Source: Porpolomopsis calyptriformis
Taxonomy: Eukaryota > Basidiomycota > Agaricomycetes > Agaricales > Hygrophoraceae
NCBI GenBank assembly: GCA_951640195.1
Contig: OX621171.1
Span: 1,426,001-1,490,000 of the forward strand
Length of the DNA stretch: 64,000 nt
Direction: 5' to 3'
Each line of letters starts with the position of its first letter. Position 1 is the first letter of the stretch. Both the position numbers and the translations under genes were made by a program. Positions 17,891 through 63,483 of the stretch are shown here, piece by piece. The notes under the pieces were generated by a model. The model saw only the letters and a program-made list of their open reading frames with translations, was not told the DNA's origin and ran no database searches.

Positions 17891-17892
17891 CC

Positions 17893-20058: not shown

Positions 20059-20463
20059 TGTCATGAAATTGGCGTTCACTCTCTTAAAATTCTGTTCTTT
20101 TCCTTTCTTTTCTATGCCTGTTCTCTTTGGAAGGGGGCTGTCTTTATTGGCAGCAGAGACTACTTGTACAAAAGGGGGAGTCCATGTCCGACTAACTATT
20201 TAAACTAGTCTGTCTTAGCAATCTCCTGCACCATACTGTCCCTCAAGAACTCTACAAAACTCGAGACTACTTGACCATCTAATGCGGCCAACTTATTACC
20301 CCAATAGATTGCCCCATTGGTATCTCCACCAGAAGCCTGCAACTCAGTAGCCTTCCCCTCAACGAAACCCATTGCTATCTTTCTCACTTCCTCACCCAAC
20401 CAATCGTTAGTGGGACTCCATAACAAACTAGGAGGAACATCTTCCTCCTTGATCTTGATGTTG
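20059..20463 (-). mobile_element. Unit U-A, left part (1.7-kb TG...CA unit)
   Basis: It begins TGTCATGAAATTGG, the same left end as U-B and U-C. The 5 bases before it, AAGGC (20054-20058), are repeated after the right end of the unit (28465-28469), which proves a single insertion event. It is interrupted at 20463 by Ty3-5; about 80-90 bp of the unit and about 94 bp of the adjoining Ty3-5 LTR were lost at this junction. See U-B for the full structure. Confidence 0.88.
20205..20463 (-). pseudogene. U-A antisense gene, exon 3
   Basis: This is the last exon of the three-exon gene described at 51285-52113. It reads PTNDWLGEEVRKIAM, ELQASGGDTNGAIYWGN and ends VQEIAKTD-stop at 20205. The frame is open here, unlike in U-B, where Trp of NDWLG is a stop. 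The exon start and upstream intron were removed at the Ty3-5 junction. There is no known domain. Confidence 0.7.
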
Positions 20464-20780
20464 AACGAGGAATCAGACTTAAGGTCTGATACGTACAGAA
20501 GTACTCTTTATATACTGACTACTTATCTGTGTGAGTCAGTGCGGCATAACATGAGGTGGAGATAAGGATGAGTCATCGTGATCGATGACGAATTATAAAG
20601 GGGTTGAAACATAACGGAAATGAAGTGTGTCCGCATATGGGTAAAGTAGTGGGGAATCCCTAGGGAATCCCGGAGAAAGGTAATGGGGAATCCCGATAAC
20701 AAATGGGGGGAATTCCAAGATAAGAGATAGGTTTGCATACAATTAGATAAAGAAAAAGAAGGAAAATTACGACCGTGACA
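20464..20780 (-). repeat. 3' LTR of Ty3-5, outer end truncated
   Basis: The 317 bp correspond base for base in length to 26945-27261 of the 5' LTR, with about six substitutions by eye (roughly 98% identity), so the insertion is recent. The terminal ~94 bp (through TATAACA) are missing together with adjoining U-A sequence, so no target duplication survives on this side. Confidence 0.9.
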
Positions 20781-20815
20781 TACACCTCGGCTTTTAAAGA
20801 AATTCGTCCCGAATT

Positions 20816-21553: not shown

Positions 21554-21644
21554 GATAAAGTTACTATGGTGTTTTGACTCAGTGGTCTTGAGTCGTTAAG
21601 GGGCGCGTAATTTGAATCATGAAGGAAAGTAGAGACGTCCGGCA

Positions 21645-21652
21645 GTTTATAA
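21645..21652 (-). promoter_or_regulatory. TATA-like box ahead of the Ty3-5 extra ORF
   Basis: The minus strand reads TTATAAAC, about 99 nt before the ATG, matching the position of TTATAAAA in Ty3-1. Confidence 0.45.
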
Positions 21653-21717
21653 GGAGTGGTTCTAAAAATAGAGGTCAATTCTTGGCAGATGAGATGATGA
21701 CAAACGAATGAATAGAA

Positions 21718-24700
21718 TCAAGTCGCCGTTTGAATTGAGTCTTCGTACGTCTTCACAATTTCCTTGGCGTGTCGTAAAATGTTCGATCGATCTTCCCAAG
21801 TGGCTTCTTCGATCGGATAACCTTTCCATTTGACCAAATATTTTCGGCGTCGTTTAGCTCCGGAATGTTGTAGTATAGATTCGACCTCGTATTCTTCTTC
21901 ATTTTCGATCAGATCAGGGGGAGGCCGTGATGTGTCGATGACATCAGGGTGGAGTAATTCATTTCCGACGTTGGGTCTCAGGAGTGAAACGTGAAAGACT
22001 GGGTGTAGTCTCCACGTTCCGGGAATGTCAATCAGATAAGCAAGGTCCGATATCTTCTTCAAGACCTTGAATGGTCCGGTCCGTCGATTGTCAAGTTTCT
22101 TCGAGGGTCGTGTCGTCTTGATATTCTTGGTATCCAACCAGACTAGATCTCCTTCTTCGTAGGAGGGTGAAGGCTTCTGTTTACGATCGGCGTATTTCTT
22201 CATTGACTCCGTTGTCTTTGATAAGGATCGTTCGGCATTTTGCTGTGCGCGTGTGAGGCATTCGTGAAAGGTATTTGCTGCGGGCACGTTGCTTTGATCC
22301 GGAATGATTGTGGGAAGGTGAGGATGACGTCCGTATTCCATATAGAACGGTGATTGTGAAGTAGCAGAGTGTTGCCGATTATTATAGGCAAATTCCGCAG
22401 AAGCAAGCCATTCTGACCAGTCGTCCTGCATAAAGTTGGTATAGAAACGTAAGTAGACTTCAAGTTCTTGATTGGTTCGTTCCGTTTGACCATCTGTTTG
22501 AGGATGATACGCAGTGGAAAGACCGGAGATAATCCCTAAGGAGTTATTGAGGGCTTCTGTGAATTTGGACGCAAATTGCACTCCACAATCGGATATAACT
22601 TTTTGGGGCCATCCATGATGTTTCCAGATGTGATTCCGAAAGAGTTTTGCAGCACCTTCTGATGAAAGATTGGAAGTTGTCGGAATGAAATGAGCATGTT
22701 TAGTGAAACGATCGACAACAACCATTACAGCATCATAGCCTTGTGACTTGGGGAGTTCGACAATGAGATCGATGGTAATTTCCTTCCATGGTTCCATAGA
22801 GGGGGGTATGGGTTGGAGTAGTCCTGACGGCTTCGAGGGGAAGTTCTTGTTTTGTTGACAAGTGGGGCAGGATCGAACGTAGTTGGTGATGTCTTGTAAG
22901 GCACCATCCCAAATAAAGTTACGAAGAACGAGTTCCTTCGTCTTCTCAATGCCAGGGTGGCCAGCGTGGGGGTAGGCGTGGGACAGTCGTATAATGTCTG
23001 TGCGCAGAGATACCTCCTCTGGCACCACTATCTGACCTTCAACATCGCGTACAAGCCTATCAGCTTGGGTCCAAGCGAATGAGGCATCCTCGAGTTTATC
23101 TTGGATTTTCTGCGGGAGTGGGATTTTGAAGCGTAATCTAGAGAGAAAGCTTGAATTCGACAAGTTGACAATTGAATTTATCCATCGGTCGCGCGCTATC
23201 AGAACTTCGTTCTCCACGTCGGCTTCGACGCCGGGCAAGTAATCCGGGCGTCTGGACAAGCTGTCGGCCTTGTTTTTTCTCCCTGGAACGTATTCAATTT
23301 TGAACCCGAACCTGGACAGATACTCAGACCAACGAGTCTGGCGGTTCGATAGGCGAAGGTTTTTGGAAAAGTATCGTAAAGCCAAACTGTCCGTCCTGAT
23401 GAGAATATTGTGTCTTGCTCCTTCGAGAAGATGACGCCATTGTTTAAAGGAATCAATGATCGCCAGGAGTTCCAGATCATGGGTAGGGTAGTTCTTTTCG
23501 GCAGGGGAGGTAGACCTTGAGTGATAACTGACAGGTTTCCAATGTCCGTCATGACGCTGGGAGAGTATTCCTGCGATTCCAATGATAGAAGCATCGGTTT
23601 CTAAGCAATAAGGGAGATCGCGATCGGGAATATGAAGAACGGGCGCGTTTGTCAAAAGGGATTTGATGTTGTCGAAGGCTTCTTGTCTCCGAGGAGTCCA
23701 TTCCCACACAGCTTCATTGTGCAAGAGTTCATAGAGAGGGGTAGCGACTTTGGAGAAATTCCTGATATATCTCCGCCAAAAGTTCGCACTGCCCAAGAAG
23801 GATTGGAGTTGTTTCACCGTCTCTGGAATAGGCCAAGACATGATAGCGTCGACCTTCTTCGGGTTAGTGGTGATTCGTCCTTTGGATAGGACGACTCCGA
23901 GATAAATGACTTCTTCCTTCTCGAACTGGCATTTGACGGGTTTACATGAGAGTCCGTGTTTCTTCATGATATCTAGAGTCTTGAAAGTCCAGCATCGCAA
24001 TTCCTGTAAATTGTCTCCACAAACAAGCACGTCATCGATATAAATGAAAACGTTTCCAGAGTCCAGGACCTTTTTGAATCTCGTGTCGATCATCCGTTGA
24101 AAGGTGGCTGGTGAGTTCCGCAAACCAAAGAACATGACGGTGGGTTCGAAGGCGCCTGCTTCCGTAATGAAAGCGGCTTTCCATTCATCATCTTCCTTGA
24201 TCCTGACGTTGTTGAATCCCCATCGGATATCCATGACTGTGAACAGTGACGCTGTTAGGAGTTTAGGTTGTTGGAGTATTTGATGAAGGAGAGGAAGGGG
24301 ATAATGATCAGGAACCGTGTGTTCATTGAGATAGCGATAATCCTTGATAGGGCGTAAGCCAGCATTCTTACCTTTAGCGTTCACTTCCTCGGCTTTCTTT
24401 CCAAAGAAGAACGGAGAGACTTGTTTCGATTTGGAAACTCGGATTCGTCCAGTAGACAAGTTTTCGTCGATGAACTTGTGTAAGTGATCCATCTCAAGAG
24501 GGGACATCGCGTATTTCGTGCCTTTAACTGGTTTAAAGGTTTCGTCCAGTTCTATGGCGTGGTCGAATTCCGAATGCGGTGGAAGGCGGTCGAAGGATTC
24601 TTTGGCAAAGACACCAGAATAGTCTTTCCAGTATACCTCCGGTACAAACTTTCGCATATCTTCTTCCACCGTGCTGGCTTGGGATTCATCCGACTTCGAT

Positions 24701-25263
24701 ACGCGTCGATTCATGGCCAGCGTGACCGATTCCATTCCCAGTGACTCCGCATCTTTCACTATCCATCGTGGAAGAGGGAAATCTTCGCTATCCAGAGCTA
24801 GTGTTGCCTCTTTCCAATCGATGTTGGGGTTGTGCTTTTTGAGCCACGGGAAGCCAAGGATAATATCTGTCTTAGATCCGAGATCGGTCACTTCCAATCG
24901 GATCCGTTCATTGTGTCCTCCAGGAGCCTCTAACCAAATATCAATATCATTCTCGATGGGTCCACCTCGGTTTTCAGATCCATCGGCATTCCGTACGGGG
25001 ATTGGGGTTTCCAATCGTGTTAGAGTAAAACTGTGGCGAGTTGCGAAAAATTCGTCCACAAAATTTCCAGAGGCTCCGCTATCAACTAGAGCAGTGGCCG
25101 GGACACGTCGACCAGTGTCGGTAGCTTCAATCCAAACGTCCAAAATAAGTCCGAGATTGCCTTTTTCAAGAGTACCAAGAATTCGAAATAAATTGCATGG
25201 GGTGGTGGTACATTCTTGAGTAGATACGTCCGTAATGGTAGGCGAAGCGTTCGGACTCTTCAA
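21718..25263 (-). CDS. pol: Ty3-5 pol polyprotein, intact
   Basis: This is a single open frame of 1181 codons, the best-preserved gene in the window. Domains: retropepsin (ALVDSGASGNF), reverse transcriptase (VMDIRWGFNN; VFIYIDDVLVCGD with the YIDD active site), RNase H (LETDASIIGIAG; NILIRTDSLAL), integrase (HAYPHAGHPG, CPTCQQNK zinc finger; TIDLIVELP, ISDCGVQFASKF, DGQTERTNQELEV for the D, D and E) and a chromodomain (KRRRKYLVKWKGYPIEE). Integrase reads SDCG where Ty3-1 has SDRG. It is entered by -1 frameshift from gag and has no ATG at its start. All catalytic residues I can place are present, so it may be functional. Confidence 0.96.
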   Translation of the reverse strand: MKSPNASPTITDVSTQECTTTPCNLFRILGTLEKGNLGLILDVWIEATDTGRRVPATALVDSGASGNFVDEFFATRHSFTLTRLETPIPVRNADGSENRGGPIENDIDIWLEAPGGHNERIRLEVTDLGSKTDIILGFPWLKKHNPNIDWKEATLALDSEDFPLPRWIVKDAESLGMESVTLAMNRRVSKSDESQASTVEEDMRKFVPEVYWKDYSGVFAKESFDRLPPHSEFDHAIELDETFKPVKGTKYAMSPLEMDHLHKFIDENLSTGRIRVSKSKQVSPFFFGKKAEEVNAKGKNAGLRPIKDYRYLNEHTVPDHYPLPLLHQILQQPKLLTASLFTVMDIRWGFNNVRIKEDDEWKAAFITEAGAFEPTVMFFGLRNSPATFQRMIDTRFKKVLDSGNVFIYIDDVLVCGDNLQELRCWTFKTLDIMKKHGLSCKPVKCQFEKEEVIYLGVVLSKGRITTNPKKVDAIMSWPIPETVKQLQSFLGSANFWRRYIRNFSKVATPLYELLHNEAVWEWTPRRQEAFDNIKSLLTNAPVLHIPDRDLPYCLETDASIIGIAGILSQRHDGHWKPVSYHSRSTSPAEKNYPTHDLELLAIIDSFKQWRHLLEGARHNILIRTDSLALRYFSKNLRLSNRQTRWSEYLSRFGFKIEYVPGRKNKADSLSRRPDYLPGVEADVENEVLIARDRWINSIVNLSNSSFLSRLRFKIPLPQKIQDKLEDASFAWTQADRLVRDVEGQIVVPEEVSLRTDIIRLSHAYPHAGHPGIEKTKELVLRNFIWDGALQDITNYVRSCPTCQQNKNFPSKPSGLLQPIPPSMEPWKEITIDLIVELPKSQGYDAVMVVVDRFTKHAHFIPTTSNLSSEGAAKLFRNHIWKHHGWPQKVISDCGVQFASKFTEALNNSLGIISGLSTAYHPQTDGQTERTNQELEVYLRFYTNFMQDDWSEWLASAEFAYNNRQHSATSQSPFYMEYGRHPHLPTIIPDQSNVPAANTFHECLTRAQQNAERSLSKTTESMKKYADRKQKPSPSYEEGDLVWLDTKNIKTTRPSKKLDNRRTGPFKVLKKISDLAYLIDIPGTWRLHPVFHVSLLRPNVGNELLHPDVIDTSRPPPDLIENEEEYEVESILQHSGAKRRRKYLVKWKGYPIEEATWEDRSNILRHAKEIVKTYEDSIQTAT

Positions 25264-26408
25264 AAACCCTGTTCTTTCAGTTCCTTGATGAGCTGAGCTT
25301 TCTTCTCCTTCGGCCAGCGGTCGATCCCGCAGTTGTCCACCACTCGAATAGTTTCCTCCATAATAGTTGGGGAAACCACTTCGTCGGCTCGTTCTGTCTC
25401 GATACCTCGAATATTTCGTCCTCGACCTCGCCCTGTGGTTGGTCTTCCTCGCCGTTGTCCGGCAGGGGCACTACTCGATGGGCGCGCTGTCGAAGAAGAG
25501 GCGAGAGGGGAATTTGGACACTTGTTCACCCAATGACCTGGTTCTCCGCAGCGATAGCAGTTGCCTTGCGGAACGCGCAATATTGATGGTGAGGAAGTTG
25601 TCTCCTGTTTGACAGGAGCAGAGGAGGGAGTTCGGGTCGTCGTTCAAGCCACGGTCTCCCTGGGAGTGTAGTAGTTACTCCGGGGAACGGTACGACGCTC
25701 AAGTGCAAGTTCGAGACGTTGTCGATCGAAGATGGAAGCTTTTCGCTTCCAAGCGTTAAGGGTGGCGGGGATGGGATCAAGGGCATAGACCTTTTCGAGT
25801 ATTCCGGGGTTGAGGCTGTTCCGGTAGAAAACTTTAAGGGCGTCGTCGTTGAATCCAGTTTCATCCGCGAGAGCTCCGAATCGTACGTTATAATTGTCCA
25901 CAGTAGAAAGTCCTTGGGTTACCTTTTGAATTTTGACCTGCGCTGTCGCTCTCGCATCAACGTCTCCAAAGCATTCCTCAAGCTCTTCCATAAAATGCTC
26001 GTAATCGGCTCCAACCCATTGGACACGTTTGAACTCTTGGGTCTGCTGTCGGGCCCATGATTGGGCGACACCAATCTTCATAAACGACAAGACATAAGTG
26101 ATCTTCTGTCTGTCGGACCATTGGCTGTCGTCGAGGACTAGATGACAAGCTTGGATGAAGTTAAGGCACTTGGCTGCAGACCCGTCGTATTCATCGGGTT
26201 TGGCGATCTTGATGGAAGGGGGAGCAGGTTGTTGAGGTAAAGGAGGCTGTTGGTGTGGTAGAGGAGGTTGGGGTTGTTGTTGCTGGAGCTGGGTAATTAG
26301 CTGTTGTTGTTGGGTGATAGTTTGTTCGAGTTGGCGAACAGTGGCCACCAAGGTCGCAATATCAATGGTAGGGGGGTTGGTGGGGGCGTTAGTGGACGTT
26401 CCTGACAT
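25260..26408 (-). pseudogene. gag: Ty3-5 gag, one in-frame stop
   Basis: The frame runs 383 codons from ATG at 26408 to TGA at 25260 with a single internal TGA at 25646-25644 (context GCT TGA ACG, readily explained by CpG decay of CGA). It has a Gln/Pro-rich N-terminus after a short coiled region (LEQTITQQQQLITQLQ), a capsid domain (KPDEYDGSAAKCLNFIQACH, ITYVLSFMKIG, GDVDARATAQVKI), then a CCHC knuckle (CYRCGEPGHWVNKC), a Gly/Arg segment and a C-terminus ending KEQGF. About 440 bp of leader with no visible gene separate it from the 5' LTR. Confidence 0.9.
25263..25269 (-). promoter_or_regulatory. Ty3-5 frameshift heptamer GGGTTTT
   Basis: The minus strand reads GAA CAG GGT TTT TGA with the gag stop at 25262-25260. 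A slip of one base at GGT TTT continues with TTG AAG AGT into pol. This is the same site as in Ty3-1 and Ty3-2. Confidence 0.72.
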
Positions 26409-26838
26409 ATTGGTAGATGTCGATTGTTGTGGAGTTGTTGGAGCTGTTGGTGTTGGTGTGGATGTCGCAGAGGAAAGTTGGGAGTAGAGGGAACCGTATT
26501 GTCCTGGTGGGGTAGCAGTTCGTTGATGAACTGGTCTCGCTGTTGGTACTGAAGACGAAGAGAAGAGTCCTCTTGTTCTCGATCGAGTTCGTGGTCCTAG
26601 AGGGGCAGGAGCAGGGGTAGGAGTAGCTAACGTTTCTTCAAGGACTGAAGAAAAGGATGGTTCTTGATCTCGAATTGTAGCTGAGAAAGTCGATCTTGAG
26701 AGAGGGTCTTCATAATGTTCTTCAACGTCTGAGTTGTCGGTAGAAGCCAGGATGGAAGTGGGTAAGGGGCAAAGAGGTGATGTCGATGATCACAGTGATG
26801 GGGATGTTTGGATAAGCAGGTGGGAGAGAACCAGAAGG

Positions 26839-26849
26839 AAGTCTGATTC
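26839..26849 (-). promoter_or_regulatory. Ty3-5 primer-binding site, self-priming type
   Basis: GAATCAGACTT on the minus strand, one base from the LTR, is perfectly complementary over 11 nt to AAGTCTGATTC in the same LTR (26961-26951). That LTR segment starts about 30 nt after TATATAAAG, where the transcript should begin. Confidence 0.78.
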
Positions 26850-26850
26850 T

Positions 26851-27261
26851 TGTTATAAACCGGTTGTTCAGAATGCGTTTTACTTCGGGTGTTCTGTCCC
26901 AAGAGATATAAGAGATGGTTCCAAGTCCTTGTTATGAGTAGGCTAACGAGGAATCAGACTTAAGGTCTGATACGTACAGAAGTACTCTTTATATACTGAC
27001 TACTTATCTGTGTGAATCATTGCAGCATAACATGAGGTGGAGATAAGGATGAGTCATTGTGATCGATGACGAATCATAAAGGGGTTGAAACATAACGGAA
27101 ATGAAGTGTGTCCGCATATGGGTAAAGTAGTGGGGAATCCCTAGGGAATCCCGGAGAAAGGTAATGGGGAATCCCGATAACAAATGGGGGGAATTCCAAG
27201 ATAAGAGATAGGTTTGCATACGATTAGATAAAGAAAAAGAAGGAAAATTACGACCGTGACA
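26851..27261 (-). repeat. 5' LTR of Ty3-5 (LTR family A), complete
   Basis: 411 bp; the minus strand starts TGTCACGGTC and ends TTATAACA. It has a TATA box at about 26996-26988, then the near-palindrome ATCAGACCTTAAGTCTGAT around the expected start site. Its length equals that of the solo LTR at 56029-56439. Confidence 0.93.
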
Positions 27262-27748
27262 ACTACTAGACAAAGCACTTGTTGGACCAGGGGTCCAAGG
27301 ACGGAAAGGGGGACTGGTAGCCCAGTCCTCAGGCTTAGCATCATCAAAGGGGAGGGGATGCCCCCAACGATCGGAACTCCAATCGACCTGCTCCTCTAAA
27401 GGGAGCTGGGAAGTAGGGGGAGGGGCGTCGTCATCCCAAGCTAAGAAAGGAAGGCCTATTATCAACAAACATAGACTAATAAAGACAAAACAGATACATA
27501 CCAAGCGGATCCTCCATCAAGCCACAAACATGCTGGATTGGCCAGAGAACATACAGACACTTTCTGACCTTATGCTTGCCACCACAAGCAAAACAAGAGA
27601 AGGAGGACCAGCAGAGGTTGGCGTCGGAGGGGGTGCGCTGAAGGTAGTAGTGAAAAGAATCACAATCAAGGAAGATAGGAGCGGTGCGGTGCACCACTCC
27701 AGACTGCTTGAAGAATTGGACGTAGTGGCCTTGGTGGGAAGGAGTCAT
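27262..27748 (-). pseudogene. U-A antisense gene, exons 1-2
   Basis: Exon 1 from ATG 27748 to 27502 reads MTPSHQGHYVQFFKQSG, FLDCDSFHYYLQRTPS and the Cys/His cluster CFACGGKHKVRKC. A 61-bp intron (27501-27441, GTATGT...CTTAG) joins in phase to exon 2, WDDDAPPPTSQLPLEEQ and PLPFDDAKPEDW. Both exons are open in this copy, so only the Ty3-5 insertion and the linked deletion break the gene. Product and comparison are given at 51285-52113. Confidence 0.7.
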
Positions 27749-28148
27749 GATGATTGACAAGGATTGAACTGAAGCATAGGGATACAACCCCACACCTTTT
27801 ATATGCCTAGACACAAAGGGAGGACCAAAAAGAGCTTCCTCAGTCAAAGAAGAGAAACCCGATACGCTGGGCAAGAGATAGAAACAACGGCGATCTCATA
27901 ACCAGAAGAACAATAGAAACCAGTCATGAGACAACACAGCCTCATTCTGCGGAAGGCTATGCCCAATAGAATTGAGTCATCAGAAGCACACAGCCTTCTG
28001 CAGAATGACTAGGAACAATGGCAAACCTTAATTGAAGGCTGTGAACAATAGAAAATGGGGTGACTGCAGAGGCTGACTCATAGTGACTCCTATTTTAGAA
28101 ATACTATATAAACCCTGAGGGCGAAGTGGATCATCACTTCATCCTCCT

Positions 28149-28464
28149 GTGAGATTACTTGTAGTAGCACAAACGCAATCAGAATCATCAGACTTCTTTT
28201 CTATCAGAACAAGAAAAGAGAAACATAACTCGGAACTATTGGACCAACTATTCATACCTATATTCCCTAAACTCTCAGCAGAGGCACGAAACGGATTCAA
28301 CCCACAAAATAACTTCTTTATAGAAGTCCAACTTAACTCTGAAGGAATCATTACTCTTTTTGAAGATGTTCCTGTCAGAACCTTTTTCTATATCCTTCTA
28401 GACCTATTAAGCTCAAAGGCCTGCCTTGTGATCAATGAAAAAACTTACAACTACAGTTGTGATA
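28149..28464 (+). pseudogene. U-A sense reading frame reaching the end of the unit
   Basis: This is the longest version of a frame seen in all three units. It starts at a GTG here (ATG in U-B) about 40 nt after the TATA box, reads LLVVAQTQSESSDFFSIRTR, then IPIFPKLSAEARNGF, EGIITLFEDVPVRTFFYIL and SSKACLVIN, and ends NYSCD at the unit border. A stop follows 5 codons later in flanking DNA. There is no known domain. The conserved block is the last ~75 codons. It may be the start of an ORF that continued into a lost internal region. Confidence 0.5.
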
Positions 28465-31271: not shown

Positions 31272-31423
31272 TGTTCAGTGGGGAAGTATCAGAACTGTGG
31301 TTACAGGTTTGCAAATTTGCTGTAAATTTACAGCCAAACATTTCCAATTATTTATAGCTTTGCTTTTTTCCCTAAAATCTTATGGGAAGTCACCTATTAG
31401 CGAATAGTCCCTAATAGCTCAAG

Positions 31424-31546
31424 AACCTAGAACTCACCTGATATCAAGTGACATGGTCATCACCTCACTTGACCTTAGCCCCTTTTGGGACCTCCCTGGC
31501 CTCTACCTACTCCCCCTTATTACCTATGCCTACCCCCACCTATAGA
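31424..31546 (-). pseudogene. Fragment of the accessory coiled-coil gene
   Basis: About 123 bp nearly identical to 17531-17660, including the CAG/GTGAGT donor of the Lys/Glu-rich exon of the gene at 16849-17890. It directly abuts the right end of H1. The rest of this copy is not visible. The following 31547-31690 holds two copies of the 32-bp dispersed motif and nothing else I can name. Confidence 0.6.
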
Positions 31547-31689
31547 TAACATCATCTAAAGGTGTGCAGGATGAGTATGCTCAGATCGCGCAAGATGATA
31601 TAATATCATCCAAAGGTGCACAAAACAAGTGTGTTCAGATGGCGCAGGGTGTTGGGGTTAGGATTTCTAACAATATGGCTATTATAGAG

Positions 31690-33520
31690 GTAGGTTAAGG
31701 CTTAACTAATAGGGGTTGTAATATTAGTATCTGTATAAAACTGACTATTTCCTTGTAGATCTGCTTATATAAGCTGCAGAACATACTTGCTTAACCTTAG
31801 ACACCTTGATAACTATACCCTTAACAACTTAGAGCAAGTTAACTAGTAATATAATCTATATAATTTCCTCATATGTTACAATACATCCTTATACACTATT
31901 TATTATAAGCTTTCTAAAGATGAATTTATATAAAGAATATTGGAAAATTATATAAACTCACTAAACTTATAGTATTATATACCTATAGTACTATGAGCTA
32001 AAAACTATTCCAATATTTAGCAAGTTTGACCTAATGCTATTATATCCTGTAATATAAGATAGATATAAATATAGGAATATTACAGGATAGCCCTTCATCT
32101 TAGGTCTAAAACAAGCCCTAAAACATTAGAATCGGTAAAGTATTTCTAGAGATATTCTATTTTAAATCTGGTAATATTATTGAAATAGTTGTTTTACTAA
32201 GATACTAAAATCTAGAAAAGATAATACTTTAACTTAGGGGTAAAGACTGTTTATAATATGTTTGGTTCCAAAAGTGAGCTGTAGATTATATTAATAGTAA
32301 CAAACAAACCTAACTAACTAGTTGAACTTGACCACTATTATTATAAAAAGCCTTTCTACTGCTAATTGCAATTACATCATTCTAGCTTCTAAATTTAGTG
32401 CTTCCTATACTACTATCTCTAGATTATACACTAGATATTACCTTGATCTTCAAAAGTCTTTTAGTAGATATCCTTCAAAGCTTTCCACCTCTAATATTTA
32501 TTAAAGTTCCTCCTCTAGCATCTTAATATAGAGGTCTATTAATTTTTTTCCATACCTATTTCTTACTATCTGATCCCAAGCAATTGATTTTAGTTTTATC
32601 AAACTATAGTACCTTCTTCTAGTCCTCTATAATCTAATGTTAATACCTTGAAGTAAAGTCTATTCTCTCCTTCTTATACTTCTTAGTGAGTAAAGGTCTT
32701 TTCTTCTTCACTATAGCCTTTATCCCCACTTCTTTCTAAGCCATTATCAAACAGTTTGGGAAGAGAGAGGTTAGTTAGTAATATTCCTAAGCATTTAAGT
32801 AACTTCCATAGTATTTTTAACCTTCCCAGAGCTAATAAGATAAATAGTATAGGAAACTATCCAATTCTATAATAAGGCTAGAAGACTTCTAACAAGATAA
32901 TAACTCTAAATACACCTATAAGAAGGCTAAAAAGTGGTTGAAGGATTATAGATATGAAGTCCTCTTATAGCCTACCCAATCCCCCAATCTCAATCCTATT
33001 AAGTATCTCTAGAGGAACTTGAAAAGAAGGTTAGCTAACTGTAAGGTATCCTCTCTAATAGAATTGTAGAGTTGTAGGAAAGGGTGTAAGTAGAGTGGGA
33101 TAAAATAGCAGAGTATACCTAGATATGTGGGAAGCTGTATTAAAGGCTAAGGAAGGTTATACCAAATACTAAATACTAGTAGAAGTTCTCAATAAAATAA
33201 ATATTTTAATCATATCACTAGATTTAAAATAGAATACCTCTAGAAATACTATACCAATTCTAATGTTTGGGGGCTTGTTTTAAACCCATGATGAAGGGCT
33301 ATCCTCTGTAATATTCCTATAATTATAGCTATTTTATATCAAAGGATATAATAGTATTAGGTCAAACTTGCCAAATATTGGAATTATTTTTAGCTCATAG
33401 TACTATAGGTATATAATACTATAAGTTTAGTAAGTTTATATAATTTTCCAATATTCTTTATATAAATTCATCCTTAGAAAGCTTATAATAAATGGTGTAT
33501 AAGGATGTATTGTAATATAT
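31690..33520 (+). mobile_element. Tc1/mariner transposon relic b with internal inversion
   Basis: The flanks 31700-32210 and 33190-33520 are inverted copies of each other over about 330 bp. Between them, 32321-32504 encodes the N-terminal helix-turn-helix part (SASYTTISRLYTRYYLD). About 32505-32855 is the middle of the gene in reverse orientation; its 32505-32690 part is the reverse complement of 17890-18080. From 32860 to 33180 the C-terminal part runs forward again (QDNNSKYTYKKAKKW, QSPNLNPIKYL, with Lys in place of the catalytic Glu). The transposase is dead. Confidence 0.75.
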
Positions 33521-33523
33521 AAG

Positions 33524-39459: not shown

Positions 39460-39605
39460 TGTTATGAGATTGGCATTCACTCTCTTAAAATTCCGTTCTT
39501 TTCCTCTCTTTTCTATGCCTGTTCTCTTTGGAAGGGGGCTGTCTTTATTGGCAGTGGAAGCTATTTATACAAAGGGGGAGGTCCATGTCCAACTAACTAT
39601 TTAAA

Positions 39606-40425
39606 CTAGTCCATCTTGGCAATCTCCTGCACCATGCTATCCCTCAAAAACTCCATGAAACTCGAAACTACCTGACCATCTAATATGGCCAACTTGTTAC
39701 CCCAATAGATTGCCCCATTGGTATCTCCACCAGAAGCCTGCAACTCAGCAGCCTTCCCCTCAACAAAACTTATCACAATCTTTCTCGCTTCCTTACCCAA
39801 CTAATCATTGGTAGGACTCCACAACAAACTGGGAGGAACTTCTTCCTCCTCAATCTTGATGTTGACGTTGGTCAATGACGTCAATAGATCTTCCACTGAG
39901 AGATGAGGAGTCAACAAACATAAAAGAGAGTGAGAGAGTTTGGAGCTTACAACTAGAAATGGGACTTGGACCAGGGGTCCAAGGATGGAAGGAGGAACTG
40001 GCAGCCCAGTACTCAGGCTTGGGGCCAGCAAAGGGGGGAGGGCACCCCCAATGATCAGAACTCCAATTAACTTGCTCCTCCAAAGGGAGCTGGGAAGTAG
40101 GGGGAGGGGCGTCATCATCCCAAGCTGAAGCCCATTATCAACAAACAAAGACTAATAAAGACAAAACAAAGAACTTACCAAGCAGATCCTCCATCAAACC
40201 GCAAGCATGCTGGATTGGCCAGCGAACGAACAGACACTTCTTGACTTTATGCTTGCCACTGCAAGCGAAGCAGGAGAAGGAAGACCAACAGAGGTTGGTG
40301 TCGGAAGGGATACGCTGAAGGTAGTAATGGAACGAATCACAGTCAAGGAAGACAGGGGCAGTGCAATGCACAACCCCAGACTGCTTAAAGAATCAAACAT
40401 AGTGGCCTTGGTGGGAGGGAGTTAT
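39606..40425 (-). pseudogene. U-B antisense three-exon gene
   Basis: Exon 2 (174 nt), intron 2 (55 nt) and exon 3 (290 nt) have exactly the lengths found in U-C, and all splice sites are kept (GTAAG donors, CTTCAG and TCTCAG acceptors). The start ATG is ATA, an Arg codon in exon 1 is TGA (CGA in U-C) and the Trp of NDWLG in exon 3 is TAG. Each lesion is a C-to-T type change absent from at least one other copy. The cluster CFACSGKHKVKKC is kept. Product discussed under 51285-52113. Confidence 0.72.
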
Positions 40426-40824
40426 GATGATTGACAAAGAATGAACTGAAGGATAGGGATACAACCCTGCAGCTTTTATATGCCTACAGACAAAGGGAGG
40501 ACCAAAAGAAGCTTCCTCAGTTAAAGAAGAGAAACCCGATACGCCTGGAAAGAGATAGAAACAACAGCAATCTCATGACCAGGAGAACAATAGGAACTAG
40601 TTATGAGACAACACAGCCCATGCTACAGAAGGCTATACCCAATAGAATCAAGTCACCAGAAGCACACAGCCTTACGCAGTATGACTAGGAACAATAGCAA
40701 ACCTTAATTGGAGGCTGTGAACAATAGAAAATGGGGTGACTGCAGAGGCTAACTCATAATGACTCCTATTTTAGAAATACTATATAAACCCTGAGGGTGA
40801 AGCAGATCATCACTTCGTCCTCCT

Positions 40825-41142
40825 ATGAGATTACTTGTAGTAGCACGAATGCAATCAGAATCATCAGACTTCCTTTCCATTAGAACAAGGAAAGAGAAAC
40901 ACACACTTAGAATCATTAAAGCCAACTATTCATACCTATATTCCCTAAACTCTCAGCAGAGACACGAAACAGATTTAACCTACAACAGAATTTCTTCGTG
41001 GAAGTCAAACTTCATTCCGAAGGAATTATCACCCTTTACGAAGACGTTGCTGTCAGAACCTTCTTCTATATCCTCTTAGATTTATTAAGCTCCAAAGCTT
41101 GCCTTGTGATCAACAAAAAGACTTGCAACTACAGTTGTGACA
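40825..41142 (+). pseudogene. U-B sense reading frame
   Basis: It starts ATG RLLVVARMQSESSDF, shifts frame near 40915, then continues IPIFPKLSAETRNRF, HSEGIITLYEDVAVRTFFY and NYSCD to the end of the unit. Compared with U-A over the last 50 codons I count about 16 or 17 synonymous changes against 7 amino-acid replacements, which points to past selection on the protein. Confidence 0.5.
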
Positions 41143-41296
41143 GTGAGCCCTCAAGACCGCATATTAGACTTGACCATATTTGGTAATGACCAAGAAATCG
41201 GAGTTTCAGAATGTGGTAGATTTCGGAGAATCATCGGAGTTTGAAATTGGAACATATATAATAAGTTCTGGTGGACCACTCTTCTTCATTAACAAT

Positions 41297-42049
41297 GCCC
41301 ACTCGTGACGAAATCCAAGCCCAACTCGCACAGCTGCAAGTCTAGCTTGAAAACGAAGAATGATGAGAACACGAGGAAGCAGAGAAACAAGCGGAGGAGG
41401 CCCGGAAGGTGGAGGAAGAGTGTCAGTTGGCAGAGGAATGATGGGCAGCTAGAAAGGGTGCCAAAGCTGCAAAAAAGGAGGTAGCGAGGAGGGCGAAGAA
41501 GGCAGCTCAAACAGCAGAGCAGGCAGAGATAGTGGTGGAGGAGAGATCAGGGCAAGAGGCCTTGATCAGAAGGCTATAAGTATTTTCTCTTTTATCCACT
41601 TTATTCCAGAGTTGACTGGAGTTTATTTAGGAGGGCTCCATGCAAGCCTTGCATCAGGAAAGGGAGCGCAGAGGAGTGCGTGTGGCTGGCTGGACAAGGG
41701 AAGGCCTAGAGTTGCACCACCTGCCAACAGGTAAAGGCCAAATGCTGGGTTGGGGAAGAACCAGCAAAAAGGAAATGCACCCAGAGTGCCACGGAGGAAC
41801 TGGAGCACAGAGGAAAAAGGCAATGAGGAAATGCAGAGTTAGCAGAGATGGCGAATTTGAGGGAGGAGTTGTAAGGAGTTTGGGGGGAGATGAAGAAGAT
41901 GAGAATGGAGATGAAGAGAATGAGGGAGTCCATAGAGAGGACTGAGGAGTTACTAGATGGGGATTACCAGGATAGCGGAGAAAGTTTGGAGGAGTTGGAG
42001 GAAATGCCCATAAGGGATGTAGAATTAGTCCCTTTGGAATAGATAACAA
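41297..42049 (+). pseudogene. Accessory gene relic: coiled coil plus binuclear-type cysteine cluster
   Basis: It begins MPTRDEIQAQLAQLQ with a Glu/Ala/Lys-rich coiled coil (EEAEKQAEEARKVEEE; KGAKAAKKEVARRAKK), ending SGQEALIRRL. An intron probably follows (about 41580-41632, GTATTT...TTTAG; the phase is not settled). Then CKPCIRKGSAEECVW and SCTTCQQVKAKCW give C-X2-C-X8-C and C-X2-C-X6-C, like fungal zinc clusters. The last part is helical (MKKMRMEMKRMRES, EESLEELEE). All internal stops fit CAG, CAA, CGA or TGG decay. The layout parallels 16849-17890. A DNA-binding role is plausible from the cluster but unproven. Confidence 0.6.
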
Positions 42050-51137: not shown

Positions 51138-51284
51138 TGTCATGAAATTGGCATTCACTCTCTTAAAATTCTGTTCTTTTCCTCTCTTTTCTGTGCCTGT
51201 TCTCTTTGGGAAGGGGCTGTCTTTATTGGCAGCAGAGACTATTTGTACAAGAGGGGGAAGTCCATGTCTGACTAACTATTTAGA

Positions 51285-52113
51285 CTAGTCTGTCTTAGCA
51301 ATCTCCTGTACCATACTATCCCTCAAGAACTCTATGAAACTTGAAACTACTTGACCATCTGAAGTGGCCAACTTATTTCCCCAATAGATTGCCCCACTGG
51401 TATCTCCACCAGAGGCCTGCAACTCAGCAGCCTTCCCCTCGACAAAACACATCGCAATCTTTCTCGCTTCCTCACCCAACCAATCATTGGTAGGACTCCA
51501 CAACAAACTGGGAGGGACTTCTTCCTCCTCAATCTTGACATTGACATTGGTCAATGATGTCGATAAATCTTCCACTAAAGAGATAAGGAGTCAACAAATA
51601 TGAAGAGAGCGAGAGAGTTGAGAGCTTACAACTAGAAACGGGACTTGGACTAGGGGTCCAAGGACAGAAGGGGGGACTGACAGCCCAGTGCTCAGGCTTG
51701 AGATCAGCAAAGGGGAGAGGGTACCCCCAACGATTGGAACTCCAATCGACTCGCTCCTCCAAAGGGAGCTGGGAAGTAGGGGGAGGGGGGTTATCATCCT
51801 AAGCTAAGAAAGGGAAAGCCTATTATCAATAAACATAGACCAATAAAGACAAAACAAAGTACTCACCAAGTGGATCCTCCATCAAGCCACAAGCATACTG
51901 GATTGGCCAGTGAATGAACAGACACTTCTTAACTTTGTGCTTGCCACCACAAGCGAAGCAGGAGAAAGAAGACCAACAGAGTTCGGTATCGGAAGGGATA
52001 CGTTGAAGGTAGTAATGAAAAGAATCACAATCAAGGAAGACAGGGGCAGTGCGGTGCACCACCCCAGACTGCTTGAAGAATCGAACGTAGTGGCCTTGGT
52101 GGGAGGGAGTCAT
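51285..52113 (-). pseudogene. U-C antisense three-exon gene, unknown protein with CCHC-like cluster
   Basis: Exon 1 from ATG 52113 to 51867, intron 63 bp, exon 2 51803-51630, intron 55 bp, exon 3 51574-51285. The exons sum to 711 nt, a multiple of three, and all junctions are GT-AG. The predicted ~236 residues contain FLDCDSFHYYLQRIPSD, CFACGGKHKVKKC (C-X2-C-X3-H-X4-C, one residue shorter than a retroviral knuckle), PPTSQLPLEERVDW and LQASGGDTSGAIYWGN. The only lesion seen is TAG for Trp at the start of exon 2 (TGG in U-A and U-B). The consensus of the three copies is fully open. I recognise no family; RNA or DNA binding through the cluster is possible. Confidence 0.72.
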
Positions 52114-52512
52114 GATGAATGACAAGGATTGAACTGAAGCATAGGGATACAACTCCACACCTTTTAAATGCCCATGAACAAAGGGAGGACCAAAAGGAGG
52201 TTCCTCAGTCAGAGAAGAGAAACCTGATACACCGGACAAGAGATAGAAACAAAGGCGATCTCATGACCAGAAGAACAATAGGAACCAGTCATAAGACAAC
52301 ACAGCCCAGTGCTGTGGAAGGCTATGCCTAATAGAATTGAGTCATCGGAAGCACACAGCCTTCCGCAGTATGACTAGGAACAATGGCAAACCTTAATTGG
52401 AGGTTGTAAACAATAGAAAATGGGGTGACTGCAGAGGCTGACTCATAATGACTCCTAATTTAGAAATACTATATAAACCCTGAGGCAAAGCGGATCATCA
52501 CTTTGTCCTCCT

Positions 52513-52830
52513 GTGAGATTACTTGTAGTAGCACAAACACAATCAGAATCATCAGACTTCCTTTCCATCAGAACAAGGAAAGAGAAACATAAAACCTAAA
52601 ACTATTAAGCCAACTGTTTATACCTATATTCCCTAAACTCTCAGCAGAGGCATGAAACAGATTTAACCTACAACAGAACTTCTTTGTAGAAGTCAAACTT
52701 AACACTGAGGGAATCATTACCCTTTACAAAGATGTTCCTATCAGAACCTTCTTCTACATCCTTCTAGACTTATTAAGCTCCAAGGCCTGCCTTGTGATTA
52801 ATGAAAAGACTTGCAACTACAGTTGTAACA
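52513..52830 (+). pseudogene. U-C sense reading frame
   Basis: The same frame as at 28149-28464: LLVVAQTQSESSDF, a frameshift near 52590, IPIFPKLSAEA followed by a TGA where U-A and U-B have CGA, TEGIITLYKDVPIRTFFYIL and NYSC to the unit end. Confidence 0.45.
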
Positions 52831-55550
52831 GATGGTAGGCTGTGGATACATTCTGGGAGGTGCCTAGAAGGCGAAAGAGATCAGTCATGAACTTGGAAAC
52901 AAATCGCGGATCGCAATCATGGATGATGCGTTGGGGGACACTGTGATCTTAGATAACATAATCCCAAATGATTTTTGCGAACCCTTCAGAGTTCAGCTCG
53001 ATGTGGGTGGCTTCGAATTTGACAGCCTTTGAGAAGTGATCAATGATCATGAGAATCACATTGTAGCCCTAACATTCAGGTATGGGGCCAACGAGATTGA
53101 CTGTAATCGTATCCCATGGTCAAGGAGGAGGGTTGAAAGGGTGGAGTGGGGTTTTCGTGGGGAGTTGGGATGCCTTGGTGCATTGGCATGTTTTGCAGCC
53201 ACGAACATAAGTCTCAACATCTCTCCTGATAGTAGGCCACTAGTAGTCATGACACACAGCTTCAGAGGTCTTGAAAGAGCTGTAATGTCCAGAGAGAGGA
53301 TTGTTGTAGTATTGAGCGATGATTTCGCGGCAGAGTGGGGTGTCCTTTGAGATGTAAGTCCAGTCCAGGAAGGTCTTGATGCTGTAATCTCGGGTATTCC
53401 AATCAGTTTTACATTTTTCTTGAAGGAGTGTGGCTTGTTTTTCTTCATTTCGGTATGAATTTTGAATCCAGGAGTGGAAATTAGTGGGTTCAATCTCATG
53501 TTGAACTTGGTGGAGATCTATGATAGGGTGGTCTGAGGTGGGAAAAAGATTATCTGGGAGTAAAATAATGTTGTCATTGTCATTCACCCCCCTCTCAAAA
53601 CCTGGTCATCTCAACAGGATATTGGCCTTGCCGGCAACATGGTGGAGAGTGAAGTAATAGTCCTGGAGCTCCGTGAGCCATCTTGCCTGGCATCTATTCA
53701 GCTTCTGGGGCAGCTTAAAGTACTGGAGGTTGGCGTGATCCGTCCAAACCTCAAAGACTTGCTTAGCAGACAGCAGCCATTTGTGGAACTCTTGGAGTGC
53801 AGTTATTATCGCAAGCAACTTGCAGTCATAGATCTGGTAATTTCGTTCCATGGGGGTAAAAGCCTTGGAGACATAAGCAATGGGCTTCTAGACGTTGTCT
53901 TGTTTTTGTAATAATATAGTGCCCAATGCGTAGTCAGAGGCATCAGTTTCCACATGGAGTAGGTCGTTATTATTGGCAATAGAGAGGACAGGAGAGGTTG
54001 TAATGATCCTTTTCAGGGCATCAAAAGCATCCTGGCATTCAGTTGTCCAGTCAAAGGGAGTGTTTCCAGTTAGCATATTGAGGGGTTGAGCAATCCCGGC
54101 AAAATGATGGATGAATTGACGATAGAAATTACAGAATCCAAGGAAAGCTTGAACATCTTGCTTGCATTTGGGGGTTGGCCAGTCAGTAATTCCCTGGACC
54201 TTAACAGGGTCTATCTTGACGTGGCCTTCGGATATGATAACACTGAGGTATTCCACTTGTCGCTGATTGAAATTGCACTTCTCAGGCTTAAGGTAGAGTT
54301 TATGTTCACGAAGTGTGGTCATAACTTCGTAAACATGTTGGTGGTGCATTTCAAGATCCTTGTCAAAGATAAGGATATCATCTATGTAGACCAAGATGTG
54401 TCCTTCGACGATTTAGACATGGAAAATGTTGTTCATCATATTTTGGAATGTCATGGGCAAGTTGGTGAGACTGAAGAACATGACAAGGGGTTCAAACAGG
54501 CCACAATTGGTTTGGAATGCAGCCTTGTGTTCATCTCCTTCTTTGATCCAGACATTGTTGTATCCCCATCGAACATCTAGCTTAGTGAAATAGTGAGCAT
54601 TCTGTAGGGTGTCAATCAATTTGTTGATCAGAGGGAGGGGATACTGGTTTTTGACAGTCATGTCATTGAGCTTTCTGTAGTCCTGGATGGGATGTAGTCG
54701 ACCATCTTTCTTCTTGATGAAGAAGAATAGGGAGGCAATGGGGGAGATTGATTTGTGAATCCATCCAGTGCAGAGGTTCTCTTCCAAGAACTCGTCCAAT
54801 TGGGCACATTCATCCACAGAGAGTGGATAGCCCTTGCAGTCAAGCTTCTCTTCAGTTCTGGGGAGGAGTTCAATTGCGTGGTCCCAGGGATGACTTGGGG
54901 GGAGTTCATCGAAGTCTTCCTTGGTGAAGATGTCTTGGAATTCGTGGAGGTATTCAGGAACAATTTCCTTCCAGGTACAGTCCTTCTTCTGGGCCTCCCA
55001 GGCCTTGATCGCGAGATCCTGAGACTTTGTTCCCATCAAACAAATCTAGATAGCAGGGTTGAAGTCAACTATGAGTAGTTGATCGCCATCCTCAAGGGTC
55101 AGTTTGTTGATGTTGACGGAGTCTGGGAAAGGAGTGGGATGACAATCTGGGGGGCATCGATCGAGAACTAGGGAGTTCGCCTTCCAATCAATAGAGGGGT
55201 TGTGAATCTTTAACTAGTTGTATCCAAGGAAAATTCAGGATTTGCCAAGGTTTGTGATACCGAAGTTAATTCATTCGACATGAGTACTGACCTTGAGCTC
55301 GAGCGCAACCATTTCGGAGATGGGTCCCTTGGAATTAGGTTGTCCATTGGCATTATGTACCGGGATGGGTCAAGCGAGTTTGGTTGTGTGAAGGTTGTTT
55401 TCATGGACATATTTAATGTCGATACATAAACCTTTGCAGCCACTATCAATGAGAGCAGTTGCAAGATGTTCAGTACGATTATCTAAGGTAGTGATGATAG
55501 TCTTGAGGGTCAATTGATTCCTCAAGCCTGAACTATAAACAAACACATGA
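52831..55550 (-). pseudogene. Ty3-9 pol, nearly intact but truncated
   Basis: Protease with ALIDSGCKGLCID near 55455; reverse transcriptase 55039-54413 (HYFTKLDVRWGYNNVWI), a TAG, then VYIDDILIFDKDLEMH (YIDD intact); RNase H (VETDASDYALGTILLQKQ; YDCKLLAIITALQ); integrase zinc domain (HYSSFKTSEA, CKTCQCTKA) and core as far as MTDLFRLLGTSQN then STAYH, where U-C begins. Only a handful of stops, mostly TAG or TGA, interrupt it in this span. The last Glu of the integrase triad and any chromodomain are missing. Confidence 0.88.
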
Positions 55551-56001
55551 GGTTCCTTGAGTTCGTGGAGGGCTCAGATGGCATTTTCCATTGAGAGGGA
55601 ATTGATCTGATTGATCATGGTTTGAGTCATCTCCAGTGATTGGGCAGGGTGAGACCATTTTTGAAGAATTGGGATTGCTTGATTAGCCTGTTCCTTAATA
55701 GCGTTAACAATATCTAGAGGGGAAGAAAGAGAGTTGATGTCAATTGAATCGACAGAAGGGAGAGACGATGATTCGGGAATGGGGGATTCAGGGAATTCGG
55801 GGCACTCAGTGTTCACATCTGGCATAGACAGGGTTGGACAAATTTCATTAACAGACTTGTTGGTATCAATTAATGTACATGCTGTCATAGTAGTACAAGG
55901 GAGGGAAAGGGGAGAAGGGGTAACAAAGGGGGTGTCTGATACTGTCTGTTTGCAATGCTAAAGCAAACACAATTCTGTTGAGTGAAGTGAGCGCATCTTC
56001 A

Positions 56002-57401
56002 TTAACCGTCGCCAAAATCCTGATCATCTGTCACAGATGTAAATTTTCCATTTCTCTCTATGTTTGTCCTTGTAGTTTAGTTGGATCCACCTTATCTTGC
56101 TTGGGATTCCCCACAGTTTCATCATAGGATTTACTATGACCTTATCTTTTTCATTTATCCAAGATAGGATACTTTTCATTTCCAATAATTATGTTTCATC
56201 CTTTCACATACTCTGAGTTCCCTATCATACTTATCTTCACTTGTCGCATGTATTCCTCATGTAAACACTAACTCATCTACAGTAGCATAGTCAGTATATA
56301 AACCCCTAGTTAGTTGTACTCAGACCTTAAGTCTGATTCCTCGTTAGATAACCCAATAACTAGGACTTGAGACATTATTATCATCTTGGGACAGAGCACT
56401 CCAAAGTAAAACCATCTCAACAACAACCAGTTTATAACATTATCGTTGTCAGGGGTGGGTTCATCGGCATTGTGTTCCTCTGTGGAAAGGAAGTTCATCA
56501 ACTCTGAGATCTTGTTGATAGTCAGTTCATGCTGGAGAGCATGAATGTTAACCTTCTTGAGCTCTTGGGGACAATCCCAGTAGAAGTGTCCGATCTGACC
56601 ACAGTTGTAGCACCTATTGGTCTGTCTCATCTTGCTCAGGTCCATTGGAAGACCCTGGCCTCCATGGATGGTGCCCGATGGCACTTGCTTGTCCTGGGGA
56701 GGTGGGAGGTGGAAGTGTGGGATGGAGGGACAAAAAGACAGATGAGAATGGGGGGCAGATGGGCATTGGCATCATTCCTGTTTATGGAAATGTTCCAGCA
56801 ATTGACCCATAGCCATGACCTTTTCGTGGTACTTGGGGTATGTGGTGGGAAGCAGGGGTGACATGTACATTTGATGAATGATGTCCTGGCAGACATTCTT
56901 TTCAAGGATCTGGATGCATTCTTTATCCTGGCCGACGAGGCCAGCTTGGCAGAACAAGAGTTCCAACTTGACAAAGTAGTCTATGATACCTAATCGTCCT
57001 TGTGAGAAGTGCTCAACTTCCTCATGGGTGCATTGCTCTGTGGTGTGGTTGGTGAAAACAGCATCCAGAATATCCATGAAGTCTTTCCAGGGGCCAAGAG
57101 GGACAAGATTGCCAGTGATGGGGTCTGTCCAGCTGAAGTAGTTGTCCATGTATTGCTGGGCCCATTTGGTGGTGATGCCTTCCTTCATATACAATAGAGT
57201 AACCAGTATCATCTTCTCGGGATCCATGACTTTGCTGCCGCGAAGGAAAATAATGACCTGGCAGAACCAGTTCTTGTACAGTTTTTTATCGCCATTGAAG
57301 ACGTTGTGTTGGGCAAGCTTAATCATTTTTGAGACTGAAGCCATTGGTGGCATTTGCAAGGGAGGAAGTGGGTTTGGATTTGAAGGCAGTGGGGGAGACA
57401 A
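56002..57401 (-). pseudogene. Ty3-9 gag with a solo LTR inserted
   Basis: The open part 57401-56772 reads MASVSKMIKLAQHNVFNGDK, WFCQVIIFLRGSKVMD, ITTKWAQQYMDNYFSW and GRLGIIDYFVKLELLF (capsid). After a frameshift a CCHC knuckle (CYNCGQIGHFYWDC) lies near 56570-56615. The C-terminus is split by the LTR at 56029-56439; without it the frame reads PTPDND-NDQDFGDG-stop, ending at 56002. Confidence 0.85.
56029..56439 (+). repeat. Solo LTR of family A, target duplication TCATC/TTATC
   Basis: 411 bp, TGTCACAGAT to TTTATAACA. Flanks are TCATC (56024-56028) and TTATC (56440-56444), differing by one transition. Length equals the complete Ty3-5 LTR. Confidence 0.88.
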
Positions 57402-63136: not shown

Positions 63137-63483
63137 GATAGAGATTAATTGCATGATTGAATGGATAATGTGGGTGGAGTTTTTCAAATTCTTTTGTGTG
63201 GAAGATATGCCAGAAGCAATAGACATAGAATAGAAGCTATAGGAAGATGTTGGGCTAGCTCTGGAGTTGTATGGAACTGATAACAATGTGATTGTGTTTT
63301 GCCTATTGATTAGTGAAGCTAGCTCCCTGGCTGGGATAGAAGATTTAATGTTGTCCTTAATGGAAACAGGTTGTAAGTGGTCAACTCTGACTAAAGAGAT
63401 GTGAGAGTCATGTTTCAGACTTAAACTAAAGAAGCAGAGTTCCTCTCTAGGCTCTATTACTGACTTGCATACTACTAAATAAT

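Follow-up and report, generated by a model that had tools for sequence, protein, structure and literature searches.

A putative three-exon antisense gene within the 1.7-kb LTR of a Ty3/gypsy retrotransposon from the fungus Porpolomopsis calyptriformis

We propose, with a probability of roughly 0.93 for the two statements taken together, that a 1.7-kb unit present three times in a 64,000-nucleotide stretch of the Porpolomopsis calyptriformis genome is the LTR of a Ty3/gypsy retrotransposon and that this LTR carries a coding gene on its antisense strand. The stretch as a whole (assembly GCA_951640195.1, contig OX621171.1, positions 1,426,001 to 1,490,000) is called the window below, and coordinates are those of the window unless they are given as LTR or antisense positions. 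Judged by its predicted domains and signals, the retrotransposon is a chromodomain Ty3/gypsy element of the self-priming Tf1/sushi-like type with an LTR of roughly 1.7 kb. The antisense gene is located within U3 and comprises a TATA box, three exons separated by two GT-AG introns, a coding capacity of about 237 aa and a poly(A) signal; it spans antisense positions 718-1537 of the 1683-bp LTR, and not the interior between pol and the 3' LTR. A preliminary description of the window had recognised the unit and its antisense gene, but overlooked both a second gene, the sense frame ORF1, which is coding in the LTR, and the self-priming signal.

Copies of the unit and full-length elements

One copy in the window, U-B, occupies 39460..41142 on the forward strand as U3-R-U5 in the orientation of the retrotransposon, with TGTTATGA..TTGTGACA ends and the same borders as the LTRs of full elements, in agreement with the TG...CA-type ends reported for it previously. 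It aligns end to end with U-C (51138..52830, +) at 87.8% identity. The third copy, U-A, is a single LTR interrupted by a nested element, its first part lying at 20059..20463 (+) with AAGGC at the left flank and its second at 27262..28464 (+) with AAGGC at the right flank. The unit borders given in the preliminary description were exact, and its 5-bp duplication of U-A was confirmed. Comparison of both edges revealed no target duplication around U-B or around U-C.

Several other repeats adjoin these copies. The element nested in U-A (20464-27261) has 317-bp direct repeats (20464-20780 and 26945-27261) that are 98.1% alike, and encodes a 1181-aa ORF with pol similarity on the minus strand (21718-25263); no 5-bp duplication of this element was seen, and a relative with 74-80% identity lies in the opposite orientation at 322-4860. 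In the alignment, U-A lacks 84 columns at the nested insertion point. To the right of U-B, 41143-41910 was considered as the interior of its element and rejected, being part of a different repeat that occurs in at least 40 copies (86 candidates at first look). The LTR copy at locus L009 has this repeat in common with U-B at 94.8%, and the two copies may therefore stem from one insertion or from a duplicated block. The right flank of U-C (52831-56820, about 4 kb) matches loci L011 and L016 on the same contig at 95%, the flank stretches of these two loci being 97.6% alike; since the flank is common to them, the stretch was probably duplicated after the LTR had landed. Elsewhere in the window, 17529-18951 and 31421-33523 share a set of direct and inverted repeats that are about 86-94% alike from one region to the other, and 7550-7922 and 62776-63146 form an inverted pair of about 370 bp with 92% identity.

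Across the 33.5-Mb assembly (17 contigs), an 18-nt pattern of the 3' end of the unit had 254 matches with up to two mismatches, and its reversed control had none. Full-length searching returned 293 candidates, and 38 of the 40 that were scored begin within the first 17 bases of the unit and reach its end. Target duplications were assessed for whole copies in 20 loci and the window, 20 of these copies having both edges cleanly aligned, and a 5-bp duplication was present in eight. Seven of the eight are independent, because L018 and L019 have common flanks; the 12 copies lacking a duplication include the two LTRs of one full element (C13), and five further copies with a small gap near the left edge were left out of this assessment.

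Patterns for the LTR-PBS and PPT-LTR junctions matched 17 and 23 places, respectively, with up to three mismatches, against one place for each reversed control. Combining junctions in the right orientation and within 20 kb gave 15 pairs that represent candidate full elements, of which nine have a spacing of 5.30-5.35 kb and the remainder range from 4.9 to 19.8 kb, the larger spacings presumably reflecting nested insertions. The polypurine tract GGGAGGGGGTAA directly precedes the 3' LTR and was found with up to two mismatches in 18 of the 23 places (reversed control, 1). Since no more than 40 LTRs (17 + 23) have a recognisable interior junction, compared with 254 3' ends, the majority of copies are solo or fragmentary LTRs.

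Six of the 15 pairs were sampled at their ends (C1, C6, C8, C10, C13 and C14). Identity between the two LTRs of a pair, where both are preserved, is 97.5-99.4%, and in four of the six elements a 5-bp target duplication lies outside the LTR pair, namely ATCTA on both sides of C6 (LTRs 98.6% alike), GTGAT at C8 (98.2%), CTGAT at C10 (97.9%) and CTGGG at C13 (97.5%). The 5' LTR of C1 is missing its first 229 bp and the pair is 99.4% alike over 1482 bp, and that of C14 is reduced to its last 438 bp, or interrupted, and is 98.6% alike to its partner. LTR lengths in C6, C8 and C10 are 1706-1708 bp. The preliminary description had proposed, as its own check, to look for two direct copies on either side of gag-pol within a 5-bp duplication, and these paired LTRs support its reading of the unit as a giant solo LTR with an antisense gene in U3.

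The spacing of the 3' ends of the unit suggested such pairs, and the interior between two of them (L029) was therefore read, nearly whole. Its Pfam domains occur in the order protease, RVT_1, RNase H, Integrase_H2C2, rve, SH3_Tf2-1 and Chromo, with the chromodomain at the C-terminus of the integrase (PF00385, 5e-14). The gag frame, which contains one stop, matched no Pfam family and was assigned by position. The integrase part had 4039 matches at E 1e-30 among 7994 scored, including proteins of Rhizoctonia, Tulasnella and Ceratobasidium; the six closest (57-64%) all come from contigs of 2-5 kb, and named matches, one of them from Absidia, a member of another phylum, have 42-46% identity. The left flank of L013 was also considered as a family interior, but was set aside as a broken gypsy pol that need not belong to the 1.7-kb LTR family. 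Near-identical direct repeats around gag-pol, the 5-bp duplication, the polypurine tract beside the 3' LTR and the protease-RT-RNase H-integrase order are features shared with Ty3/gypsy, and the chromodomain is one shared with chromoviruses.

These results bear directly on the alternative named in the preliminary description, a gene-carrying DNA element, framed here as a non-autonomous or gene-carrying 1.7-kb DNA transposon with TG..CA ends and 5-bp duplications that is independent of the gag-pol elements. Such a transposon would suit the prevalence of solitary copies (254 3' ends against 15 junction pairs) and the short inverted ends TGTCA/TGACA, but the terminal inverted repeats extend no further than these five bases, the closely similar copies bracket gag-pol with duplications outside the pair, ORF1 crosses the right border of the unit and ends in the element interior, and no transposase family in Pfam was matched by the antisense protein or by the last 117 codons of ORF1. 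We consider the probability of a DNA transposon to be close to negligible, and treat the unit as an LTR below.

The LTR promoter on the sense strand has the predicted TATA box TATATAAA (40781..40788, +), which is present in 29/29 aligned copies. The sequence CACTTCGTCCT (40811..40821, +), which begins 30 nt after the start of this TATA box, is where both R and the RNA are predicted to start, and it complements 11 nt near the end of the 5' LTR in C1, C6 and C8; these three elements carry AGGACGAAGTG, its exact complement, 2 nt past the 5' LTR. The match is inexact by one base in C10, which differs in R, and in C13, which differs in the PBS. As a control, only 2/300 random interior 20-mers had an 11-nt complement anywhere in the LTR. 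We infer that the element self-primes, with the PBS pairing with the predicted 5' end of the RNA. A tRNA-primed PBS (LTR end, 0-4 nt, then TGG) was rejected, since the 24 places with this arrangement had varied intervening letters and no single motif. According to the available part of one source, the first 11 bases of Tf1 RNA complement its PBS, and Tcn1 of Cryptococcus has been proposed to self-prime as Tf1 does (PMC7175516). As far as these partial accounts allow comparison, the element resembles Tf1/Tf2 of fission yeast and Tcn1 in having an integrase with SH3_Tf2-1 and a chromodomain, and an 11-nt PBS match to the predicted RNA 5' end. It departs from the Tf1/sushi type in the 1.7-kb length of its LTR, in the three-exon gene on the antisense strand of U3, and in the additional ORF1, whose LTR-born frame differs from that of gag and overlaps its start.

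A spliced antisense gene in U3

In U-B, the predicted gene is read on the minus strand through exon 1 (40179..40425, 247 nt), intron 1 (40125..40178, 54 nt, GTAAGT..CAG), exon 2 (39951..40124, 174 nt), intron 2 (39896..39950, 55 nt, GTAAGC..CAG) and exon 3 (39606..39895, 290 nt including the stop). Its start codon is ATA in U-B and ATG in 28/28 other copies compared, and intron 1 is 61-65 nt long in 27/28 other copies. The antisense TATA box TATAAA (40475..40480, -) lies about 50 nt upstream of the start codon and is found in 28/29 copies, with TTTAAAA at this position in U-C, and the poly(A) signal AATAAA (39544..39549, -) is found in 25/29. The corresponding exons of U-C, also on the minus strand, are 51867..52113 (247 nt), 51630..51803 (174 nt, with a nonsense codon near its start) and 51285..51574 (290 nt including the stop), and the lengths of 174 and 290 nt previously given for exons 2 and 3 hold for both copies. 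Over 29 copies, exon 2 has 174 nt in eight and 177 nt in 21, and exon 3 has 290 nt in 20, 287 nt in three and private indels in six. Copies without private indels share a frame of ATG, 247 nt, an intron of 54-65 nt, 174/177 nt, an intron of 53-58 nt, 287/290 nt and a stop.

The antisense gene was read in 39 of about 254 LTRs, referred to here as rows. Both introns are GT-AG in 34/39 rows, which bears out the splice sites first noted in the window. The gene is intact, in frame and at both GT-AG introns, in 9/39 rows, including one LTR each of C1, C6, C8, C10 and C14; in the other 30 the frame or a splice site is broken. A total of 60 nonsense changes were counted, among them 26 TGG to TAG, 11 CAG to TAG, eight CGA to TGA and five CAA to TAA, and this pattern fits C-to-T decay after insertion, as expected. 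All three window copies are decayed, with the antisense frame disrupted in each: besides its altered start codon, U-B has two nonsense codons, U-C has one, and the frame of U-A is broken by a deletion. The structure of the window copies was correctly described before, but their decayed antisense frames and the coding capacity of the sense strand were missed.

Substitutions among the copies show a strong codon-position bias in exons 1 and 3 and a weak one in exon 2. Over all pairs of 29 copies, dN/dS is 0.109 for exon 1, 0.404 for exon 2 and 0.118 for exon 3, as compared with wrong-frame values of 1.10-1.42 for exons 1 and 3 and of 0.92 and 1.15 for exon 2, and with a biased baseline, presumed noncoding stretches having values of 0.51-0.80 instead of 1 (antisense leader, 571-717, 0.66-0.80 in three frames; antisense tail, 1538-1683, 0.51-0.68). 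Exon 2 is therefore weakly constrained, hardly below the baseline. A low dN/dS is not decisive by itself on this scale, and the coding case for exon 1, exon 3 and ORF1 thus rests on codon-position counts together with dN/dS. In 38 rows (all 39 except C14_5), the segregating sites at codon positions 1, 2 and 3 number 21/15/57 in exon 1, 23/19/33 in exon 2 and 24/11/63 in exon 3, so that position 3 holds 57/93 of the sites in exon 1 and 63/98 of those in exon 3; the corresponding p-values of about 3e-8, 0.035 and about 4e-10 are approximate, as they count the common ancestry of related copies as independent. Sites in intron 2 are spread evenly over the three phases (11/10/11). Indels common to at least two of the 29 copies measure 3 bp in exons and 1, 3, 8, 9, 10 or 11 bp in introns, and six of the seven private single-copy indels within exons break the antisense frame. 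The codon-position bias of the antisense gene and of ORF1 points to purifying selection.

It has to be asked whether this selection acted on a protein used by the element. The antisense mRNA would complement the U3 part of the genomic RNA, and antisense RNAs without coding capacity are described for micropia and TART in the part of the source available (PMC7264820); the transcript might accordingly matter as RNA, as a source of dsRNA or through promoter interference, with the protein incidental. A function of this kind fails to explain the codon-position bias in exons 1 and 3, the 3-bp size of exon indels that several copies have in common and the change of frame across introns, and we judge it highly improbable. 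It is also unlikely, though less so, that the antisense frame is a recently captured host gene whose selection reflects its past in the host and not its use by the element. The introns and the gene's own TATA box and poly(A) signal do resemble those of a host gene. However, it is among copies of the element itself that the codon-position bias was measured, and 29/29 aligned LTR copies contain the gene or remnants of it. In addition, searching 5.8 billion proteins at E 0.001 gave no homolog of the antisense protein, nor any of ORF1, in a set that includes proteins of fungal retroelements, since the integrase part finds its matches there. The codon bias among copies suggests that the antisense protein was of importance in those lineages from which new copies arose. 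There is no sign of selection keeping solo copies, since the window copies and 30/39 rows are broken.

The protein itself offers few clues. At thresholds up to E 1 it matched none of the Pfam families, TRP28 and SMC included, and neither it nor ORF1 matched a Pfam or NCBIfam family (in Pfam, the last 117 codons of ORF1). A match of the antisense protein to protein tyrosine phosphatase IVA 2 (E 0.0054) was taken as chance; the signature of these phosphatases, HC-x5-R, was not seen. Exon 1 encodes a C-x2-C-x3-H-x4-C pattern that is invariant in 14 chosen intact peptides. The CCHC zinc knuckle has the form C-x2-C-x4-H-x4-C, from which the spacing in exon 1 departs by being one residue short, with no Pfam match, and we regard the Cys/His pattern as no more than a weak indication that the protein binds metal or nucleic acids. 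Structure models of the peptides from exon 1 (pLDDT 45) and exon 3 (pLDDT 48) have too low a confidence to inform on function.

As a separate observation, antisense intron 1 (40125-40178) is more conserved than expected, with 11 segregating sites in 54 and a between-copy p-distance of 0.072 as against 0.214 for intron 2. This hints at a second function, perhaps as a regulatory or packaging site.

A sense frame across the LTR border

ORF1 encodes 167 aa on the sense strand; it begins in the LTR, crosses the border and the PBS, and ends in the interior. Its LTR part has 70 codons (40932..41142, +), with the start mutated to ATA in U-B. Measured against the same biased baseline, dN/dS for this part is 0.110, and 1.10 and 2.79 in the other frames; segregating sites number 15/4/40 by codon position (approximate p about 7e-8), and the part is stop-free in 33/37 rows (C14_5 and the cut-off copy at L020 left out). 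C8 and C10 carry ORF1 intact to its 167-aa stop, whereas nonsense changes interrupt it in C6 and C14; in L029 and L012 the frame stays open between the LTR and the identical stop. The Gag ATG lies 193 nt into the interior of C6, C8, C10 and C14, in another frame that overlaps the end of ORF1; in L029 this ATG is mutated.

The sense leader before ORF1 (LTR 1350-1472; 40809-40931) has a dN/dS of 0.20 in the frame of ORF1 and of 0.70 and 0.56 in the others; stops occur in this frame within the leader, whose segregating sites are spread evenly over the phases (13/10/14). Either the leader is constrained for another reason or the dN/dS method misleads in this stretch. A sense-strand intron upstream of ORF1, considered for U-B and U-C, which have no ATG, was dropped since most copies have an ATG at this place.

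In Ty1, TYA (Gag) likewise begins inside the LTR and reads through the PBS. Unlike TYA, ORF1 is a separate 167-aa frame that ends before most of Gag, which has its own ATG.

Comparison with known elements and possible roles

HTLV-1 HBZ extends beyond the LTR, and most of its coding sequence lies in the interior of the provirus. All exons, the promoter and the poly(A) signal of the gene described here are predicted to lie inside one LTR, unlike those of HBZ, and the likeness is one of arrangement, with no sequence relation claimed. As reported in the available part of the source, HBZ mRNA is an antisense, spliced and polyadenylated transcript that starts in the 3' LTR, with its first coding exon there (PMC1459196), and in this it resembles the spliced antisense mRNA that the conserved splice sites, TATA box and poly(A) signal predict for our LTR.

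Antisense extra ORFs are described between pol and the 3' LTR in the plant elements Retand, Grande and RIRE2 and in Boty of Botrytis, with gene23 of Grande having its own promoter, in the accessible parts of two sources (PMC7264820, PMC11963269). The present element is like these in encoding an antisense protein without assigned function in a Ty3/gypsy-type family, and unlike them, as far as they are described there, in having the gene wholly in U3; neither main text contains the word 'intron' (PMC7264820, PMC11963269). The S. pombe wtf genes, ORFs of about 1 kb that contain introns, are likewise associated with LTRs, those of Tf elements; they lie beside or between LTRs, and the available part of the source records no evidence seen of their mobility (PMC7175516), whereas the antisense gene here is part of the LTR. 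Antisense genes between pol and the 3' LTR are thus known, and what appears new is an intron-bearing gene wholly inside an LTR, for which we found no description among the literature matches listed, mostly without subscription papers.

Based on these features, we regard the antisense gene as best explained by an accessory role for which the element has retained it, and we propose that two divergent LTR promoters about 300 bp apart would fire in opposite directions, one giving the genomic RNA for ORF1, Gag and Pol and the other a short, twice-spliced mRNA. The introns would outlast retrotransposition because the genomic RNA carries the antisense gene as its reverse complement, in which the splice sites would be unusable, and reverse transcription would copy a gene in this position into both LTRs. 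Because it lies wholly in U3, each element has two copies of the gene, and solo LTRs retain it: loss of the interior by recombination would leave it complete and would cut ORF1 at the border.

A tentative interpretation, which we hold somewhat short of even odds, is that the antisense protein serves the element as an accessory factor and increases its fitness, most likely as a nucleic-acid-binding trans regulator of its expression or copy number. More speculatively, and with distinctly less confidence, each LTR could act as a self-contained cassette for a trans-acting accessory protein that leftover LTRs can keep expressing. If so, past insertions would set the dose of a factor controlling the living copies, and copy-number control or counter-defence would be built into the LTR. 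With about 250 copies in one genome, P. calyptriformis would offer a natural case in which to ask whether relics can regulate living copies via a protein.

The LTR described here may thus hold two constrained genes, one per strand. Retroelements lose sense-strand introns when they are copied through RNA, a loss that an antisense gene in U3 would escape; such a gene could have its own promoter, would be duplicated with each insertion and would outlive the element in solo LTRs. The annotation of solo LTRs would change accordingly, as they would become possible protein-coding loci.
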